Source of the DNA: Bdellovibrio sp.
GTDB lineage: Bacteria; Bdellovibrionota; UBA1018
DNA: 34,558 nucleotides
Assembly (NCBI GenBank): GCA_016185105.1
Contig: JACPOE010000028.1
Location: 32,197-66,754, forward strand
Direction: 5' to 3'
The notes beneath the pieces were generated by a model. That model saw nothing but the letters and a program-made list of their open reading frames with translations, made no database searches and had not been told where the DNA came from. A program made the position numbers and the translations under genes. Positions 17,436-26,632 of the stretch are shown one piece after another (positions within the stretch are counted from its first letter, which is position 1; each line of letters begins with the position of its first letter).

Positions 17436-18032
17436 ATGATACGGTGGGTAATAAATGTTCTCATCTTGTTGTGTTTTCTGTCCGGGCTAAGTCTTGTGCT
17501 TCCTTCAGAAGCTCAGGCGGCACGTTCGTTCTTGCTTGCTAACAAGAAAGGCAAGCGGGCTCTTGGGTTTAGCATTGATGTAGGTGCCAGTTACAATTTC
17601 AATTACAGCCGTTTCCGAAGCATACTGACATCCCCAAACTTTCTTTTGGCCGAAGGACATCTGACCATCTGGTACAAAAACTCAATTGGAATTTACGGAG
17701 TCTTTGGAGTTTCGATGGAGCCCTTTGGGCAGATTCCTATGATTTACGGGGGAGGACTTAAGTTACCGTTGGTCAATCTAGTGGGTTCAAAAACGGGGTT
17801 GATTAACGGAATTTCAATTCGATTGCTCGCCGATTACATTTTTTTTACTTTTCCTGCTTCCACCGATCCAACCTCAATTTACCTAACCTCGGGGGCCGTC
17901 GTGCGCTACGGTGGATCGATCGAGTGGGGTTTATTTCATTCGTCCCTCTTTTTGGACACTACTGTTCTGATCACACGCTACTCGGAGCAGCTTTTCTTAG
18001 GACCCTACGTGGGACTAGGATTTCAGTTTTAA
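17436..18032 (+). CDS. Small outer-membrane beta-barrel protein, function unknown
   Basis: This encodes 198 residues. A signal peptide is clear: MIRW, a hydrophobic core (VINVLILLCFLSGLSLVL) and an AQA cleavage site near residue 28. The mature part has alternating beta-strand segments with aromatic girdles (IWYKNSIGIYGVFGVSM, YGGGLKLPLVNL, YGGSIEWGLFHSSLFL) and ends in GPYVGLGFQF, a C-terminal phenylalanine as recognised by the BAM insertion machinery. I recognise no specific family. No strong ribosome-binding site precedes the ATG. Its stop codon overlaps that of the convergent glycosyltransferase gene by four bases. Confidence 0.75.
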   Translation: MIRWVINVLILLCFLSGLSLVLPSEAQAARSFLLANKKGKRALGFSIDVGASYNFNYSRFRSILTSPNFLLAEGHLTIWYKNSIGIYGVFGVSMEPFGQIPMIYGGGLKLPLVNLVGSKTGLINGISIRLLADYIFFTFPASTDPTSIYLTSGAVVRYGGSIEWGLFHSSLFLDTTVLITRYSEQLFLGPYVGLGFQF

Positions 18033-20137
18033 ATAAGGGAGTTTAATTTCTTAATTTGATTTTGGGGGTCGGAAATCTCAAAGGCTCGCTTTGGTCCAAC
18101 CTTCTGATACTGCATTCTTTGATTCCGATCGAGAGAGAGAAAACGGGAGAGAGCATTCGCAAGAAGATCGCTCTTAGGTTCGGCTAAAAGAATCCCTATG
18201 TTTTGGGAAACGGTTTCACTTGGGCCTCCGTATCCTAAAGTAATGATCGGAAGGCCGCTATACATCGCTTCAATAAAAGTAATGCCAAAGGGTTCTGGGC
18301 TGAGGTTGGGCTGAACAAACAGGTCCGACGCTTGCATAAGGTCGTATACATCTTTTCGATCCCCCAAGAACTCGACACGACGATCTAAGTCCAATCTAGT
18401 GCAAAGGGATTTGAGATCATTCAGATAGTGAACTTCCTTTTTTCTCTGAGCACCCCCGACGATTAGAACTCGCCAATTCTGTAATGAGGTGAGTTTGCCG
18501 AGTGCTTCAAGAAGGAGTAGGTGGCCTTTCCAGGGCTCCATTCGGCTGACTTGAAGAATCACGAAATCATTCTCGGACAGGCCCAGCTTTGCTCTAACGG
18601 CTGCTCTGGAAGAGTCAGCGTCCGAACTGGTTGAAGGTGGAGGAACCGGACAATAAATAACGGAGGTAGAAACATCTTTGAAAAAGGGCCGAATTGTTTT
18701 TTCAGTATAACCGCTGTTACAGATAATTTTGTTAGGCTTGATTCTCAGTGATAGCCTTTCTAACCAGTCTTTACCGCGGAATCCATCATGAGCCCAAAAG
18801 AACAGAGGAATATCGGCTTTTCTGACGGTGTCTCCGAAGATTGCGTAGGACCACGGAGCATGGCAGATCACTGCTTCAAACTGCTTAGCTTCTAAGAGGG
18901 TTTTTAAATTTTTCCTAGCTTGTCTTAGGGTCCATGGCCGGCTCCATCTGACCGAGACCGGGGCGTCTGCACTGACACCATTCAGAAAATAGACATTCGC
19001 ATTAGACCGAAGCAGCTCTTCAGACAGTCGTCCCTTGAAACACAGAGCAAAATGGTGCTGGGTTCCGGGTTCTTTTTTTTGAAACTCTGCAAGAGTTGAA
19101 AGAACTTTTTCGATGCCGCCGTAGAGATTTCCGCTGTAAATATGAAGCACCGACTTGGTTTCCCCCAGAGGCCTAGTCAGGGTTAAATTCGTATTTGCTT
19201 TCCCTTGGCTCCAGGAAATCAGGCTCTTGGCGATTACGGGCCAGTCGAAAGTTTGAAAGTAGTAGGCTTCCCCCTTTTCCCCTAACGGAGGTCTGGTCCT
19301 GATGGCTTCTATTACCTTTTCGATGAACTCTTCTTTCCTCTCAGTGTGGGTAGTTACGCAGAATGAACTCCAAGGAACCTTTCCCAAACTTCCATAGCCC
19401 ACAGTGGTTAGGACAGGACGTCCGTGGGCAAAAGCGGCCATGGTAGTAGAGCGGCGAGTAGAGATTCCGTCCATAAACGGCGCTAGAACAAGGTCCGAGG
19501 CTAGAAACCAGGCAGAAACCTCTTTTTCAGAGAGGAAGCCTTTAAAAATAATTTCGTTTAAAAAGGGGCTGTCCGACTCTTGAAATTGGTCAGGCGTGAC
19601 TCCTACACAGACTAATCTAACTTTTGCTTTTCCAAAGATTTCCCGCGCTCGAGCATAGCTTTCGAAAACGAAGTGATACAAGTGTGTCGGGTGCTTTCCT
19701 CCGAAATGAAAGAGGAGTGTCTCATCTTCATGGATTCCATTTTTTCTTCTAAATTCTTTTATAAACTCGGGGTTAACAGATTCCGGTCTTACCGAGATAT
19801 TGCTTGCAATCGGAGCCCAAGAAATTTTTTCACTAGAAAAAGGAAGCCATTTTGAACGGTGGCGTAGTTTTTTACAGAAGTGTTCCGTCGAGCAAAAAAT
19901 CTGGTCGCAAATCCAGGTGAGGGCCAGGGTCTGAAAAAAGTGAGGTATTCCTAAAAGGATGCCCTTTAGGGAGAGGCTGACGGGATAGTTTAATTCGTGG
20001 GCAATTAGAACCACAGGCTTGCCTAGTTTTCTGCTCAACAACCAGAGCCAGATTGAAAAACCGGGTCCAACTCCCAGAGTTTCGGGTGACATGGCCTGCG
20101 TGGAAAAGGGCCGGTTAAAATCGCAATTCTCATCCAA
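18029..20137 (-). CDS. Two-domain GT4-type glycosyltransferase with a disrupted N-terminus
   Basis: The open frame gives 702 residues with two tandem glycosyltransferase modules, about 15-310 and 328-702. The second is a canonical GT4 module with LYGGIEKVLS, VSRMEPWKGHLLLLEAL and the EPFGITFIEAM (E-x7-E) donor site. The first has PVVLIAHELNYPV, LLFHFGG and STRRSTTMAAFAHGRPVLTT but lacks its N-terminal Rossmann strands. The frame's own start is a TTG at 20137. Four bases away, ATG 20133 has a GGAG six bases upstream and reads MRIAILTGPFPRRPC, a typical glycosyltransferase N-terminus, but in another frame that stops after 32 codons. I infer an internal deletion with frameshift. It probably adds sugars to the polysaccharide repeat unit. 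Confidence 0.8.
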   Translation of the reverse strand: MDENCDFNRPFSTQAMSPETLGVGPGFSIWLWLLSRKLGKPVVLIAHELNYPVSLSLKGILLGIPHFFQTLALTWICDQIFCSTEHFCKKLRHRSKWLPFSSEKISWAPIASNISVRPESVNPEFIKEFRRKNGIHEDETLLFHFGGKHPTHLYHFVFESYARAREIFGKAKVRLVCVGVTPDQFQESDSPFLNEIIFKGFLSEKEVSAWFLASDLVLAPFMDGISTRRSTTMAAFAHGRPVLTTVGYGSLGKVPWSSFCVTTHTERKEEFIEKVIEAIRTRPPLGEKGEAYYFQTFDWPVIAKSLISWSQGKANTNLTLTRPLGETKSVLHIYSGNLYGGIEKVLSTLAEFQKKEPGTQHHFALCFKGRLSEELLRSNANVYFLNGVSADAPVSVRWSRPWTLRQARKNLKTLLEAKQFEAVICHAPWSYAIFGDTVRKADIPLFFWAHDGFRGKDWLERLSLRIKPNKIICNSGYTEKTIRPFFKDVSTSVIYCPVPPPSTSSDADSSRAAVRAKLGLSENDFVILQVSRMEPWKGHLLLLEALGKLTSLQNWRVLIVGGAQRKKEVHYLNDLKSLCTRLDLDRRVEFLGDRKDVYDLMQASDLFVQPNLSPEPFGITFIEAMYSGLPIITLGYGGPSETVSQNIGILLAEPKSDLLANALSRFLSLDRNQRMQYQKVGPKRAFEISDPQNQIKKLNSLI

Positions 20138-20160: not shown

Positions 20161-20724
20161 CTACTTTCGGGTCAATACAATTCCCACTGCGACGATAGAA
20201 AGGACGCTGGCGACAAAAGAGACTAGAACACCCATATCCTGGCTAATAATCGGCTTCTTTTGAGGGATGACCACGACGTCATTTGCCTGCAAAATAGGAG
20301 GCTTTGTACCAGTTCCCTCAAGCAGGTCTTCTGCATCGACATCGAGAACGATCTCTTTACCTCGAGACCATCTTTTAATGTAGACCCCGCCCAGTTTGGC
20401 GCTCTCAGTTGGACCGCCCGCATAAGACATGAGTGTAATCAGGTCCGTCTGAGTAGGTACAAAGTGAATACCGGGTTTCCCAACTGCCCCCCAAAGATTC
20501 ACCCGCATTAAAACAGCTCCCGGATAGTCCCCCGAGATAAACTCGCTACCTTGACCCGCCTTCATCGAGCCCAAGTCTTTCGAAACAGATAGGCCCGTAG
20601 TTAGGTCATCGGCTCGGGCCGAAGCAAAGGGGTAGAGTAGGGAGGCCGGAAATACTGCCTCGATCGCCAGTTCGAAAATCAAGAATAAGACCAAAGATCT
20701 TTTTAGTCCGTGATTCCATTTCAT
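20161..20724 (-). CDS. SLBB-domain polysaccharide export protein with C-terminal membrane anchor
   Basis: This encodes 187 residues: an N-terminal signal or anchor segment (about 10-37, ending ASARA), one SLBB domain (about 67-150) with VNLWGAVGKPGIHFVPTQTDLITLM and AGGP, and a C-terminal membrane helix MGVLVSFVASVLSIVAVGIV followed by LTRK. SLBB domains occur in Wza-type export channels, but the polysaccharide-export (Poly_export) domain is absent, so this is not a complete Wza. The start overlaps the stop of the upstream BY-kinase gene in an ATGA arrangement, implying coupled translation and a shared task in export. Confidence 0.85.
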   Translation of the reverse strand: MKWNHGLKRSLVLFLIFELAIEAVFPASLLYPFASARADDLTTGLSVSKDLGSMKAGQGSEFISGDYPGAVLMRVNLWGAVGKPGIHFVPTQTDLITLMSYAGGPTESAKLGGVYIKRWSRGKEIVLDVDAEDLLEGTGTKPPILQANDVVVIPQKKPIISQDMGVLVSFVASVLSIVAVGIVLTRK

Positions 20725-23039
20725 TTGTTTTTCCTAAACTCGTTTAATGTAACTACATAAGGGGTAAATTCATGGGCGGTCTTGGGGACGTCATTTAGAA
20801 CTCCAAAGCAGCGGCGGTGGCTGATTTGGAAGACTTTTCTGTGAGCGAGAAGCAACGAACTGCGTTTGGTGATTCGATACCGTGCCACTAGAACTACCGC
20901 ATCTGTGACTCCAGCGATAACGGGTGCATCTGCTACATAGACTGAAGGAGGGGCGTCCAAGACGATGTAGTCGTAGTGTTCGTTCAGAGTCTTCAGCAGG
21001 GTCTTAAATCGCTCACTTCCCACAAGTTCCGTTGGATTAGGCTTGAGGGGTCCAGCAGTGATGACATCCAGATTCTTGATTCTCCCTCTAAATAGAAACT
21101 CAAGGTAGTCTGAATCTTTGTTTGTTAATAGCGTTGAAAGCCCTTCGTCGTTGGTCAATCCAAAATATTTATGAACTGCCGGAGCCCGGATGTCGCAGTC
21201 TAGAAGAAGAACTCGAACATCCATTTTTGCCAGACTTACCGCTAGATTCGAAGCAAAAAGGGACTTTCCTTCGTGCTTGTCAGTTCCGCTTACGGTGATC
21301 GTCCGAACAGGGTTGCCCATGCTATTTAAGGATACCTTCAGTTGTTCACGCAAATATTTGTAAGCCATTGCTTCGGGAGAGTTAGGTCGAGATTCGCAAA
21401 CTAGGAGATCTGGATTGATTTCATCGTGCTTGAATTCGCCGAGCTTGGATTCCACATGGGGTACGTTTCCTAAGAGAGTAAGATCGAACTCTTCCAGCTC
21501 AGATGCGTGACGAACGGTTGTGTTCGTCAGTTCAATGACCATCACCAGAACAACTCCTAAAAAGATTCCAACTAAAATAGCAAAGGGTAGTCGAAAAATG
21601 AGACTGAGTCGAACTTCCCTAGGAGCTGCCAAGGTCAGTCCGTCTACACGAATCGATGGCTTAACTGTCAGTTTTTGAATCTCAATATCCTGAAGTTTCT
21701 TTTTGAAGGATGAATAGAGTTCGTAATTGAGTTTCAGACTTTCGCTACGAGAATAAAGCTCCTGTTCAATTTTAGGTATTTTAGAGGCCGATTTAAGAAA
21801 CTGGGCTTTGGACTCTTCGAGAGCCTCCAGCTGTGTATTCAACTCTTTATTCATGTTTTTCAAATCGGAAATCTTGCCGTTAATAAGCGCTGAGCTGACT
21901 GGAAGCTCGTCAGAGTCAGGCATTTTTCCCGATTGGAGCAGTCTACGGAGTTGTGAAGCGATGGTTCGGATAGCGGAGTTCACTTCAGCGACGCGAGAAT
22001 CCGATTCTGGGAGCCCCTCTGAGACCATGAGATATTTTTGACGTCTTAGATTGTCGAGCTGTCGTGAGAGAATTCTCGGGTCTTTTTGGTTTACTCGGTC
22101 CGGCGCTTTTCCTCTTAAGATCGAGGAAGTGTTTTCAGTAAGTTTCTTTTGATACAGCCGGATCAGACTCTCGTTTTCGTGAATCTTAAGGCGTGCGGTA
22201 GAAATTTGATTTTCAATCGTACTTGATCTTATCGAGGCGGTTTTCTCGCTATCGTTGGGGCCCAGAATTCGGTTTTGTTTTTTGAATTCTACGAGTTCTT
22301 GTTCCTCTTTTCTCAGCTGAGCGTTGGACTCTTCAAGGCGGATGCTGATAAACTTGTGGAGTTCGTTCAGATCATTGAGCTCTTGATTCAGGACGGACTT
22401 TACGTAGACCTGGCCTTCTAGATTTGCCAGGAATATTGCGGTCCGAGGATCGTAGGATCTCACTGACAGGGTAATCCACTGGGATCCTTCCGGGGTGACG
22501 GTGGTCGCTTCCTGTAAAAGAGAGGCGAGAAATTCGATGTTTTCTCGGGTCACCTTTGCGGGCGGGGTAATGCTAATTTTTTCGTCTACCACGGGCTCGG
22601 TTGAGAAACGATTGCGGAATCGGATCGACCAGAACTTGGATCTGAAAATCGATAGGTCGCTGGGTTGGGTGAAATCCAATGTTGAAAATTCAGGGAGTTT
22701 GACGAGTGCTTCAGCGACCATGATGTAGAAACTTCCTGCTTTGAGGCGAGAGAGATGTCGTGCAACTTCCTGGGACTCATCGTAGTAGCCCCCCATTCCC
22801 ATTTCTCCCATGCCCAGACGTGAGAACACATTGTCTCTTTTCGAAAGGACCTCTAGACGAGTCGGTGCGGAGTAGCCTGGAATGAACAAGAGATGGCTAA
22901 TAATCGAGCCGATCAGGGTTAGGACCGTGACAAAAATAACGTACTTCCGCTTCTCCTTCAGAACATATAAAACTTCTGAAAGTTGAATGCGGTCCTTGGC
23001 GTTCGATAGTGGTTGGCGGCTTTCTTTGGGGCCTGCCAT
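20721..23039 (-). CDS. Wzz/BY-kinase polysaccharide co-polymerase
   Basis: This 772-residue inner-membrane protein combines a Wzz chain-length domain with a bacterial tyrosine-kinase domain. Membrane helices lie near 33-53 and 484-504, framing a large periplasmic part with coiled-coil stretches (about 220-310 and 385-455). The kinase domain has Walker A GTDKHEGKS (585-593), Walker A' LLLDCD (611-616) and Walker B IVLDAPP (692-698). The C-terminal tail carries a single tyrosine (Y761) instead of the usual cluster of autophosphorylated tyrosines. A GGAGGAG motif lies about 14 bases before ATG 23039. It is the first gene of a minus-strand unit with the SLBB and two-domain glycosyltransferase genes. 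Confidence 0.9.
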   Translation of the reverse strand: MAGPKESRQPLSNAKDRIQLSEVLYVLKEKRKYVIFVTVLTLIGSIISHLLFIPGYSAPTRLEVLSKRDNVFSRLGMGEMGMGGYYDESQEVARHLSRLKAGSFYIMVAEALVKLPEFSTLDFTQPSDLSIFRSKFWSIRFRNRFSTEPVVDEKISITPPAKVTRENIEFLASLLQEATTVTPEGSQWITLSVRSYDPRTAIFLANLEGQVYVKSVLNQELNDLNELHKFISIRLEESNAQLRKEEQELVEFKKQNRILGPNDSEKTASIRSSTIENQISTARLKIHENESLIRLYQKKLTENTSSILRGKAPDRVNQKDPRILSRQLDNLRRQKYLMVSEGLPESDSRVAEVNSAIRTIASQLRRLLQSGKMPDSDELPVSSALINGKISDLKNMNKELNTQLEALEESKAQFLKSASKIPKIEQELYSRSESLKLNYELYSSFKKKLQDIEIQKLTVKPSIRVDGLTLAAPREVRLSLIFRLPFAILVGIFLGVVLVMVIELTNTTVRHASELEEFDLTLLGNVPHVESKLGEFKHDEINPDLLVCESRPNSPEAMAYKYLREQLKVSLNSMGNPVRTITVSGTDKHEGKSLFASNLAVSLAKMDVRVLLLDCDIRAPAVHKYFGLTNDEGLSTLLTNKDSDYLEFLFRGRIKNLDVITAGPLKPNPTELVGSERFKTLLKTLNEHYDYIVLDAPPSVYVADAPVIAGVTDAVVLVARYRITKRSSLLLAHRKVFQISHRRCFGVLNDVPKTAHEFTPYVVTLNEFRKNK

Positions 23040-23210: not shown

Positions 23211-24668
23211 ATGTGGAAGACTCTTGCAGAGATCGCTTTTGGCACGGTATTGGTTGGAATTCCTATTCAGCTCCTTAACTTGAAGCTTGCCCGTAGATTT
23301 CAATGGGTTGATATACCGTCTGCTAGAAAAAGACACAGAGAGTCAGTTCCGATCACTGGCGGGGTTGCGGTAATTTCGACCTGGGCCATATCAGTAGGGG
23401 GGTTTTGCCTACTGAATCCTGCCTGGGCATCAGAGAATCAGCAGGCGCTCATTACTCTGGCTGTAGGATGCGGCGTCTTAGTCATTCTGGGATTGGTGGA
23501 TGATTTACGCGGCCTGTCACCTGGCTGGAAGCTTGCTGTGGAGTTTTTGCTTGCTGTAGGGGTTTTAACCCAGATTCCAGAGGTTACCGAAATTTGCTCC
23601 ATCTGGTCACATAAAATTGGTTTAATAGTCTGGCCTCTAGCCATTATCTGGATTGTTGGCATTACCAACACGATTAATCTTATTGATGGGCTGGATGGTT
23701 TAGCTGGTGGGACCTCTTTGCTGGTCCTAACCGGAATTGGGTTCCTGTGTCTGTTAGTTAAGACTCAGGCAATTCTCCCTATCGTTTTGACTGGATTACT
23801 TGTTCCGTCTGTGGCCGTTTTCCTGGCCTTGAACTGGTCACCTGCTCGGATTTTTTTAGGCGACAACGGAAGTCTCCCGCTCGGTTTTGTGATTTCAGTC
23901 ACAAGCTTGATGTGTCGCCCCCATATGAATTCCTGGATTATGATTGCCAGCATGGTTCTGATGTTGGGCTATCCTATTGTGGACACCGGATTAGCGGTGT
24001 TTCGCCGATATAGCAAAGGCCAGCCGTTGTTTAAGGCGGATCGGTATCATCTTCATTATCGAATCCAGAGACTAGGATTGACTACTCGTCAGACGGCTCT
24101 TCTTTTACTGAGTCTGAGCCTTTATCTTCAATTTACTGGAATTTGTGTCAATTTCCTTCAACCCTGGCAGGCAGGGCTTGTGATCGCTATCTCGATGGGA
24201 AGTGTCATTTCCCTTTTGCAACTCGTGTTTTCGATTGAACAGCGCAGGGTAGTGCGTCTGTTTCACCAGCTCCAAAACGATCCAGAGTACAAGAATTCGG
24301 AGAATGTCGCTAGTACCCGAACCGTCATTCATCTTGAAATTGGTGTTCTTTTAGAGACAGCAAGCGAGGACTCCGCTCTTCCGTACCTCCAAGTGATGAG
24401 GGCGCTTGAATTGCTTCTGAAAACAATGATTCGTAGAGAAGATGCGATTATCCTGAACGATCAAAAACTTTCGATTATTTTGGAAGGCAAGCTCAGTCCT
24501 CATGGCGAGGTATCAGCGCTGGTGACTCGCCTTAAGGCCAAGTTAGAGGCTTTTCTGACTCTCTATGGAATCCAAGGGTCTTTAGCTAGTATTCCAATCA
24601 AGGTAGAACAGCTCGTCTACGTTAAGCCCCAGGACACGTCCAATCCTCGAGTGAAAAAAGTAGCTTAG
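23211..24668 (+). CDS. WecA/TagO-like undecaprenyl-phosphate sugar-1-phosphate transferase with extra C-terminal domain
   Basis: This encodes a polytopic enzyme of the PNPT (MraY/WecA) family that transfers a sugar 1-phosphate, often GlcNAc-1-P, to undecaprenyl phosphate, the first step of repeat-unit synthesis. The motifs are DIPSARKRHRESVPITGG, the aspartate pair D97-D98, NLIDGLDGLAGG (156-167), FLGDNGS (215-221) and the HLHYR box (280-284). About ten membrane helices end near 340. Residues 365-475 are an added soluble domain whose pattern (IHLEIGVLLE, RREDAIIL, NDQKLSIILEG, then an amphipathic helix) resembles a degenerate GGDEF fold. Length 485 against about 360 for WecA. Divergent from the Wzz/BY-kinase gene. 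Confidence 0.88.
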   Translation: MWKTLAEIAFGTVLVGIPIQLLNLKLARRFQWVDIPSARKRHRESVPITGGVAVISTWAISVGGFCLLNPAWASENQQALITLAVGCGVLVILGLVDDLRGLSPGWKLAVEFLLAVGVLTQIPEVTEICSIWSHKIGLIVWPLAIIWIVGITNTINLIDGLDGLAGGTSLLVLTGIGFLCLLVKTQAILPIVLTGLLVPSVAVFLALNWSPARIFLGDNGSLPLGFVISVTSLMCRPHMNSWIMIASMVLMLGYPIVDTGLAVFRRYSKGQPLFKADRYHLHYRIQRLGLTTRQTALLLLSLSLYLQFTGICVNFLQPWQAGLVIAISMGSVISLLQLVFSIEQRRVVRLFHQLQNDPEYKNSENVASTRTVIHLEIGVLLETASEDSALPYLQVMRALELLLKTMIRREDAIILNDQKLSIILEGKLSPHGEVSALVTRLKAKLEAFLTLYGIQGSLASIPIKVEQLVYVKPQDTSNPRVKKVA

Positions 24669-24677
24669 TAAACAGGC

Positions 24678-25103
24678 TTAAGGATTTTCGTCTTCCTGGT
24701 TATCCGTCTGCGAAGGATTTAAGTGAAGTAATTCGGATACAATACGAATCAACTCTTCAATCAAAAAAGGCTTAGCGAGGTAGACTGGGAGCCTTTGGCT
24801 TCCCTGGGTCTTCTCTAGAAATTGAAGGGTCGAGATACCGGAAATGAACAAAAACTCAGTGTGTGGAAACTGGGTTTCCGTAACCTTCCAAAGGTCAAAA
24901 CCGGTCATACTTCCTTGGAGGGTGACATCCGAGATGATTAAATCATAATGGAATTTTGGATTAAGGGCCTGGGACATCATTGTTGGGGCGATTTCATCTG
25001 CGCTGTCAGCCGTGTCGATTTCACAGTCTGGCAGAAAATCCAATAAGGCTTCCATGATCATTTCGCGTAGGGCAGCATCGTCTTCGACTAATAGAAACCT
25101 CAT
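24678..25103 (-). CDS. Single-domain response regulator (receiver, CheY-like)
   Basis: This encodes 141 residues with a receiver domain only: acidic pocket E7-D8-D9, phosphoacceptor D60 in IISDVTL, S89 in FLFISG and K112 in LAKPF. There is no output domain; the last about 15 residues are polar and acidic. It sits between the WecA-like gene (convergent, 9 bp gap) and the Wzy-like gene, so it may relay a histidine-kinase signal to polysaccharide production; no kinase is present in the window. Upstream is AT-rich (TATAAAAT about seven bases before the ATG) without a clear ribosome-binding site. Confidence 0.88.
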   Translation of the reverse strand: MRFLLVEDDAALREMIMEALLDFLPDCEIDTADSADEIAPTMMSQALNPKFHYDLIISDVTLQGSMTGFDLWKVTETQFPHTEFLFISGISTLQFLEKTQGSQRLPVYLAKPFLIEELIRIVSELLHLNPSQTDNQEDENP

Positions 25104-25159: not shown

Positions 25160-26632
25160 CTACCTAGTGGGTAGGGCAGTTGGCTTTGACATGAAATAGA
25201 TTCGGACCAGGGTTCCAGAGAAAAACCAGAAGAACGCACCTTCGGGGTTATAAAGAATGGGTTCGGCTCCGTACGCACCGACCAAGATCGCAAAAAGCGT
25301 AAAGAAAAGCGTATTATGAAGCGGTCGAAGGTCAGGATCCTGAGTACGGAACCCCTTTACCGCATAGTAGCAAATTGAAATTAGGATCAGGGTGTAGATA
25401 AATGCACCGGGAATTCCCAAGTCTACGACGAGCTCGACCCAAAGGTTGTCAGCAAAGAACTCCTCTGAGAAGGATTTGTCTTTCTTGATCAGGTCTGAAA
25501 ATTTACCAGCGGCGGAACCACTTCGGGAAAGACCTGCTCCGAGGGGGGCTTTTGAGGCGTAGCGTAGAAATCGATCTAATGCTCCGGATCTGGCGCGCTG
25601 GATAGATTCGAGGTTAAAAAGAGTCAGGGTTCGTTTAACTGCCATTTCGTTGGTCGAACCTTTTTCGCTAATCGTGTCCAGAATGTAGGGAGTGAAAGAG
25701 GCGATGAGGATACCTCCGATTCCAATTCCCGTTAAAATGAGAATCCGAGCTTTTGCAGAAATTTGCTGAGTCCGAAAAATCGAAGCAGTCAGGTAGCCGG
25801 ACGCTCCCAAGATCGCTTTAAGAAGAGCCGAGCGAATCTGACAAACCAGCATCGTTGCGAGGCAGGCCGGCAGACTGAGAATGAGAAGCAGGGAAAGCAG
25901 CAGGGACCTGACGTGAAAGATGAAATAAACAATCGTAGGTACTAGCAGATATACAAAAATAGCAGGACCCCCCGGTTGACTGGCAAGTCCCGGCGGACGA
26001 AAGGCATAGCCACGGTATTTTTCAAGCACAGTGATATAGGCGTCACTGATACTGGTGACGCTCGTCGGCCCCACCTTAGCTTGGTAAAGAGAGGTTGCGA
26101 CCTGAAGGAAGCAAATCACTACCCAGGGTACGAGAAAGCCTCTAATCTTCTCTGCGTCATCCGAGAGCATGTAGCCAAAGAAATAGAGGCTGATGATTGT
26201 GACATAAATTTTCATTCCCGCTAAAGAAGCCACGAGGCTAAGCGAATAGGGATTAGCAATGGTGACTAGGAACCAGCCAAAGTGAATGAAAATCAAAGTT
26301 GTGACCGGGGGCATCTGGATCTGTTTGATGTCACGATTGATGATTCTTTCAATTCCTACTTTTACCCAGAGGACGATAATGAAGATATCCGCCCCGATAT
26401 GGATGATCGGGTTATAGTTGGTAATTAGCTTCGCGAATCCTTCTACACCGATATAGAGAAAGAATATTTGGATACAACGATGGAGAGGGAGGAAAAGAAC
26501 CCCCACGCAGCCACCCAAAAGAAGGACGAACATCACTCCCTTCAAGGTAATGGCCTGCATGAGAAAGCCAACACTCAGAGCCAGAATTGCACTTCCGGCT
26601 AATATACTTGACCTGACGAGGGCCTCCGTCAC
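25160..26632 (-). CDS. O-antigen polymerase/ligase-like membrane protein (Wzy-type)
   Basis: This encodes 490 residues with about 11-12 hydrophobic segments, a large loop around 330-390 and the conserved-looking stretch APLGAGLSRSGSAAG followed by FADNLWVELVVDLGIPGAFIY, as in O-antigen ligase/polymerase proteins. Such enzymes join lipid-linked repeat units at the periplasmic face of the inner membrane. The start is GTG at 26632. The sequence is too divergent to tell polymerase from ligase, but its place in a Wzz-containing locus favours a polymerase. It is divergent from the glycosyltransferase gene at 26687. Confidence 0.8.
   Translation of the reverse strand: MTEALVRSSILAGSAILALSVGFLMQAITLKGVMFVLLLGGCVGVLFLPLHRCIQIFFLYIGVEGFAKLITNYNPIIHIGADIFIIVLWVKVGIERIINRDIKQIQMPPVTTLIFIHFGWFLVTIANPYSLSLVASLAGMKIYVTIISLYFFGYMLSDDAEKIRGFLVPWVVICFLQVATSLYQAKVGPTSVTSISDAYITVLEKYRGYAFRPPGLASQPGGPAIFVYLLVPTIVYFIFHVRSLLLSLLLILSLPACLATMLVCQIRSALLKAILGASGYLTASIFRTQQISAKARILILTGIGIGGILIASFTPYILDTISEKGSTNEMAVKRTLTLFNLESIQRARSGALDRFLRYASKAPLGAGLSRSGSAAGKFSDLIKKDKSFSEEFFADNLWVELVVDLGIPGAFIYTLILISICYYAVKGFRTQDPDLRPLHNTLFFTLFAILVGAYGAEPILYNPEGAFFWFFSGTLVRIYFMSKPTALPTR

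Follow-up and report, generated by a model that had tools for sequence, protein, structure and literature searches.

What does a soluble domain do at the end of an enzyme that initiates polysaccharide synthesis? This question is raised by the window analysed here, the whole of a 34,558-nucleotide stretch from a Bdellovibrio sp. genome (assembly GCA_016185105.1, contig JACPOE010000028.1), in which a membrane transferase of the WecA/TagO type continues beyond its last transmembrane (TM) helix into a cytoplasmic tail. A first-pass annotation, made from the sequence alone, had read this tail as a catalytically dead GGDEF-like domain that could sense a ligand. Our analysis points in the same direction: the tail is very probably a degenerate GGDEF domain which lacks the cyclase site and keeps the RxxD motif of the inhibitory site (I-site), and is a candidate receptor for cyclic diguanosine monophosphate (c-di-GMP). 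The elements of the gene are the following, with the evidence for each in brackets:

23211–24668, + strand: WecA/TagO-type polyprenyl-phosphate sugar-1-phosphate transferase, a polytopic phosphoglycosyl transferase (PGT), with a C-terminal GGDEF-like domain, 485 residues (open reading frame (ORF), Pfam, AlphaFold2, fold matches)
23211–24230, + strand: PNPT membrane core, residues 1–340, with 11 TM helices and cytosolic catalytic loops (Pfam, AlphaFold2 helices, MraY/DPAGT1 fold matches, motif alignment)
24162–24275, + strand: last TM helix and its cytoplasmic continuation, a linker helix, residues 318–355 (AlphaFold2 model, conservation)
24312–24620, + strand: cytoplasmic GGDEF-like domain (AlphaFold2, top Foldseek matches all GGDEF, profile comparison)
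24432–24443, + strand: RRED, residues 408–411, retained I-site RxxD motif and candidate c-di-GMP contact (R408 and D411 within the top three conserved columns)
24456–24470, + strand: NDQKL, residues 416–420, a degenerate motif in the place of the GGDEF active site (register of the hhalign alignment with 29 bona fide GGDEF domains)

The GGDEF-like domain spans residues ~368–470, and in its AlphaFold2 model, for which the input alignment included related tails, the elements follow the cyclase core order βααββαβ. Comparison with the PDB using Foldseek returned GGDEF domains as all five best matches (probability 1.00, TM-scores about 0.5), with E-values of 3e-3 to 8e-3 that are not of strong significance by themselves. 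The nucleotide-cyclase fold which the first-pass annotation had inferred from the strand-helix pattern is thus recovered by structure prediction and by fold search, neither of which produced an unrelated fold. The search for a GGDEF profile, also suggested there, gave a divided answer. On the one hand, the window tail has no match in Pfam or NCBIfam and does not reach the gathering cutoff of PF00990, and among PDB sequences the tail profile, run with hmmsearch, found chance matches only. On the other hand, profile-profile comparison with hhalign against 29 bona fide GGDEF domains from the same phylum gave 93.7% (E 1.9e-7, 156 columns) for the tails of the relatives L006–L008, which form subgroup B1, and 89.9% when these were combined with the window's own group A, reversed decoys reaching at most 0.5%. 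Of the Pfam families, PF00990 also fits L006 and L007 best (E 2e-3 and 4e-4, 18–21 bits, below the gathering score of 23.8), and a weak match to it is seen in L189 (E 0.21). The tails of a sister subgroup, B2, are not recognisable as GGDEF alone (0.2% in hhalign); they are linked to this family by their homology to the other tails and by the alignment shared for modelling.

The hhalign register of the window group places NDQKL at the GGDEF position, as had been proposed, and the metal-binding aspartate is replaced by E376, the FK and ND motifs being absent. The tail therefore lacks the GG[DE]EF motif, the metal aspartate and the GTP-contact residues of active diguanylate cyclases, so that cyclase activity is not expected from its sequence. 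A different picture is obtained for the I-site. In an alignment of 119 columns from 18 tails (four of group A, two of B1, the partial L189 and eleven of group C) the three most conserved columns are R349, D411 (second) and R408 (third); as the I-site columns were picked out with the alignment already in view, no p-value is attached to this ranking. In the eleven group C proteins both RxxD residues are invariant, as is an arginine further on, R416, which is a candidate equivalent of PelD R402. As judged from the true GGDEF domains of the phylum, the RxxD motif was inherited, yet it was kept while nearly all else in the tail changed, and this retention, found also in the degenerate GGDEF receptors of the PelD and BcsE type, suggests a dead GGDEF domain that senses c-di-GMP.

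These observations bear on the identity of the ligand. Cyclase-like folds bind varied nucleotides, and the domain adjoins an active site that uses sugars linked to uridine diphosphate (UDP), so that the tail could sense GTP, a different cyclic nucleotide, or, as a form of feedback, UDP-sugars or undecaprenyl intermediates. We regard this as improbable, since what has been lost is the GTP site (GGDEF motif, metal aspartate, FK and ND) and what has been kept are the residues of the c-di-GMP I-site.

The enzyme to which the domain is attached appears complete, in agreement with the first-pass annotation, which had described an entire PNPT core with all its catalytic aspartates. The ORF at 23211–24668 (+) starts with ATG and is open throughout. 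The Pfam family Glycos_transf_4 matches residues 82–235 with an E-value of 1.4e-31 (110 bits, cutoff 27 bits), and this profile, together with the invariant N, D, G and H columns in the alignment, assigns the protein to the polytopic PGTs of the WecA/MraY superfamily. The full-length AlphaFold2 model (predicted local distance difference test, pLDDT, 83.5; predicted template modelling score, pTM, 0.73) has MraY and DPAGT1 as its best PDB matches and shares their fold of 10–11 TM helices. The acidic and polar motifs (D97-D98, N153/N156/D159/D162, D218, D258, D277 and H280/H282) are all present, the sole and small deviation being that the HxHH motif reads HLHY, with Y at the position of H283. Compared with the model for WecA proper, which is specific for UDP-N-acetylglucosamine (TIGR02380; NCBIfam ECA_wecA), the protein scores 116.9 bits against a curated cutoff of 326. 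Exactly two TM helices follow the HLHY catalytic loop in the model, which places the tail on the cytosolic, active-site side of the membrane. In the linker helix that joins the two parts, E343 is kept in most tailed relatives and R349 is invariant among the tails that keep the I-site.

With these elements a mechanism can be proposed, in which the tail would be a c-di-GMP receptor acting on the initiating transferase, a reading to which we give an even chance. At high c-di-GMP levels the ligand would bind to the RxxD I-site, contacting R408 and D411 together with another basic residue of the last helix, and, once bound, would probably bridge two tail domains into a dimer; both the binding and the bridging are inferred by analogy with known receptors. 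Binding would then shift the linker helix, the dimer or the arrangement of the active-site loops, as the domain hangs directly on TM11 at the same face as these loops, and this change would switch the commitment step of exopolysaccharide (EPS) synthesis, the transfer of sugar-1-phosphate to undecaprenyl phosphate. On the analogy with PelD and BcsE, both of which sense c-di-GMP and turn on EPS synthesis, activation of the transferase is more likely than inhibition, although we hold this with less confidence than the receptor role itself. If the mechanism is correct, a second messenger would control the first step of a Wzy-type pathway, at which undecaprenyl phosphate is consumed and the pathway is committed, and, because the receptor domain is fused to the initiating enzyme, this control would be testable in a single purified protein.

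The fusion is not restricted to the window. A search for relatives of the transferase (P0001) finds them in 85 of 291 genomes of the phylum with E-values of at most 1e-15. Many of these relatives have frames of 455–557 residues, and the tails of the extended ones fall into three subgroups. A survey of homologues, as the first-pass annotation had advised, shows the same fusion in many of these genomes: the tail profile has matches in 24 of the 291, the weakest few lying at E 0.001–0.01, and almost all are WecA C-termini. A scan of the genome contigs with the single protein found no relatives; with alignment A4 the matches were mostly untailed TagO proteins of Bacillota, apart from one tailed named relative, L090, which lies on the contig of L002. 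The ratio of nonsynonymous to synonymous substitution rates (dN/dS) of the tails is 0.13–0.30 in the pairs for which it can be estimated, several pairs being saturated, which indicates that the tail is under purifying selection and, together with the homologous tails in many genomes of the phylum, that its presence in the window is not due to chance. It could still be argued that the tail has no function at present and is the relic of a GGDEF fusion in decay, since identities to the window tail are only 8–27% and a close syntenic relative in genome G016 is devoid of it. This is the explanation we disfavour most and consider very improbable, in view of the low dN/dS, the frames that remain intact across the phylum, the strongly conserved RxxD and the ordered model.

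A number of observations weigh against the receptor reading or against the GGDEF ancestry on which it depends. Group A alone reaches only 3.9% against GGDEF in hhalign, albeit in the same register, so that the case for the window tail rests on its homology to the B1 tails; moreover, the window domain is shortened at its end and stops after the fourth strand. As for the I-site, RxxD is near-universal in the true GGDEF domains of the phylum (R in 26 of 29, D in 28 of 29), and part of its conservation in the tails is thus inheritance. The spacing between the motif and the GGDEF position is shorter by one residue in group A than in canonical I-sites, L005 has K in place of the RxxD arginine, and the third basic residue of the window would be R440 or K444, whose equivalence to PelD R402 is uncertain. 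The G016 relative (L004/L206, G016:C21) has a locus syntenic with the window and has lost the tail, which is thus probably dispensable for catalysis. A weakly supported branch (58) of the core tree sets the tailed proteins, together with the tail-less L004, apart from the others, and a grouping of the tailed proteins without L004 is rejected by the approximately unbiased test (p-AU 0.018), which fits tail loss in L004. Finally, the B2 tails have lost RxxD and conserve other residues (DLLPYYKE), so that another or an additional role has to be assumed for the tail in this group.

The B2 tails are an argument for an explanation in which a GGDEF-derived tail no longer binds c-di-GMP and serves as a protein-protein module, dimerising the transferase or docking it to partners such as the Wzz/bacterial tyrosine kinase (BY-kinase) protein, glycosyltransferases or a response regulator. 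A B2-type tail is also found in L186 (G234:C29), an ORF of 501 residues, on a membrane core with no recognisable PNPT motifs, which is likely a pseudoenzyme that kept the regulatory tail only. From known systems, the GGDEF domain of BcsE also binds BcsQ through a separate face (PMC7439463), and the PGT EpsZ of Myxococcus xanthus is activated by a single-domain response regulator (PMC12802240), a receiver gene likewise adjoining the window gene. However, this adjacency is not conserved in relatives, and a pure docking function would not obviously need an I-site pair that stands near the top of the conservation in groups A, B1 and C and in L189; we consider the protein-protein module less likely than a c-di-GMP receptor. 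Returning to c-di-GMP reception, its extension to the whole family is held more tentatively than for the window protein, at somewhat less than an even chance: in a phylum-wide family of polytopic PGTs, c-di-GMP would act through the fused dead GGDEF domain as a direct allosteric gate of the enzyme, one branch having swapped the c-di-GMP site for another input and one having become a regulator-like pseudoenzyme. Natural controls are at hand in the subgroup that lost RxxD and in the syntenic relative from which the entire tail has gone.

Other kinds of extension occur among the WecA homologues. L009 (G017) and L011 (G003) have long C-terminal tails unrelated to the GGDEF-like ones, GAF-like by eye, and, being of a different kind, were excluded from the tail set. 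L032, L038, L056, L057 and L058, of ~590–716 residues, carry a fused second region of the membrane-plus-nucleotide-binding type, CapD/FlaA1-like by eye. The extreme C-terminus of the window protein falls into a pattern of its own:

24654–24665, + strand: C-terminal KKVA ([KR]x[AGS] ending enriched in the tailed clade)

Such endings are found in 47% of the tailed-clade proteins and in 9% of background ORFs, and L004, which has no tail domain, retains KQVA; the ending is possibly a degron or an interaction signal.

In respect to genomic context, the gene sits, as judged from its neighbours, in a Wzy-type EPS locus that also contains glycosyltransferase genes:

20161–20724, − strand: SLBB (Wza-like) export protein of the EPS locus (Pfam SLBB, sub-threshold; synteny)
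20721–23039, − strand: Wzz/BY-kinase-like chain-length protein of the EPS locus, divergent neighbour (Pfam Wzz and AAA_31; synteny with WecA in L203, L204 and L206)
24678–25103, − strand: single-domain response regulator (receiver), convergent neighbour (Pfam Response_reg, E 1.3e-9)
25160–26632, − strand: probable O-antigen/EPS polymerase (Wzy-like), inferred from a homologue in the syntenic L206, with no Pfam match

The receiver beside the transferase recalls EpsW/EpsZ of Myxococcus. A functional coupling of the two was considered and set aside, the receiver gene not lying beside WecA in the relatives examined. A protein of 702 residues encoded at 18029–20137 (−) matches two separate, adjacent glycosyltransferase genes of L206, likely the outcome of a gene fusion or fission. 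The group C loci L211 and L212 present a setting unlike the EPS locus, with, by eye, a carbamoyltransferase-like gene before the tailed transferase and a gene resembling an ATP-binding cassette (ABC) exporter after it. The genome (82% complete) encodes two GGDEF proteins and six of the PilZ type; EAL proteins were not found in it at this completeness.

The control of polysaccharides by c-di-GMP is known mainly for synthase-dependent systems such as cellulose and Pel, its target there being the synthase or a partner, and little is understood of how Wzx/Wzy pathways and their initiating transferases are controlled after translation (PMC12802240). The first-pass annotation had considered such a tail unusual for WecA; this holds in so far as our literature search, of incomplete coverage, found no report of a GGDEF-type domain fused to a polytopic PGT, but the fusion is not unique to the window genome, being shared by many members of the phylum. 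In its membrane core, motifs and fold the window protein resembles the polytopic PGTs WecA, TagO and MraY, whereas the TagO proteins of Bacillota and the other untailed homologues compared end soon after the last TM helix. The closest parallel to its tail is PelD of the Pseudomonas Pel system, an EPS-system membrane protein with a dead GGDEF domain in which RxxD is kept and GGDEF lost (PMC2170427, PMC8461298). PelD is required for polysaccharide production (PMC2170427; PMC8461298), and both c-di-GMP binding and Pel production depend on its residues R367, D370 and R402 (PMC2170427). However, PelD has a GAF domain and four TM helices and serves a synthase-dependent system as a partner that is not itself an enzyme, whereas the window domain forms one protein with the initiating transferase of a Wzy-type locus. 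Likewise, BcsE of Escherichia coli cellulose synthesis has a degenerate GGDEF core with unchanged binding of c-di-GMP at the I-site, in the service of polysaccharide secretion (PMC7439463), but is a soluble accessory protein with a receiver-GGDEF tandem and no enzyme fusion. In Bdellovibrio bacteriovorus, CdgA (Bd3125) is a c-di-GMP receptor with a degenerate GGDEF (GVNEF) and an I-site (dissociation constant about 2 uM); it is a separate protein required for rapid prey entry, with no transferase fusion (PMC3271064). EpsZ of M. xanthus, with EpsW, offers the parallel on the enzyme side, as an initiating PGT of a Wzx/Wzy pathway under post-translational control, but it is monotopic, it is controlled by a separate response regulator and no c-di-GMP site is reported for it (PMC12802240). 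Degenerate GGDEF receptors and the control of PGTs by a partner are thus known separately, and what appears to be new in the window protein is that both are joined in one polypeptide.
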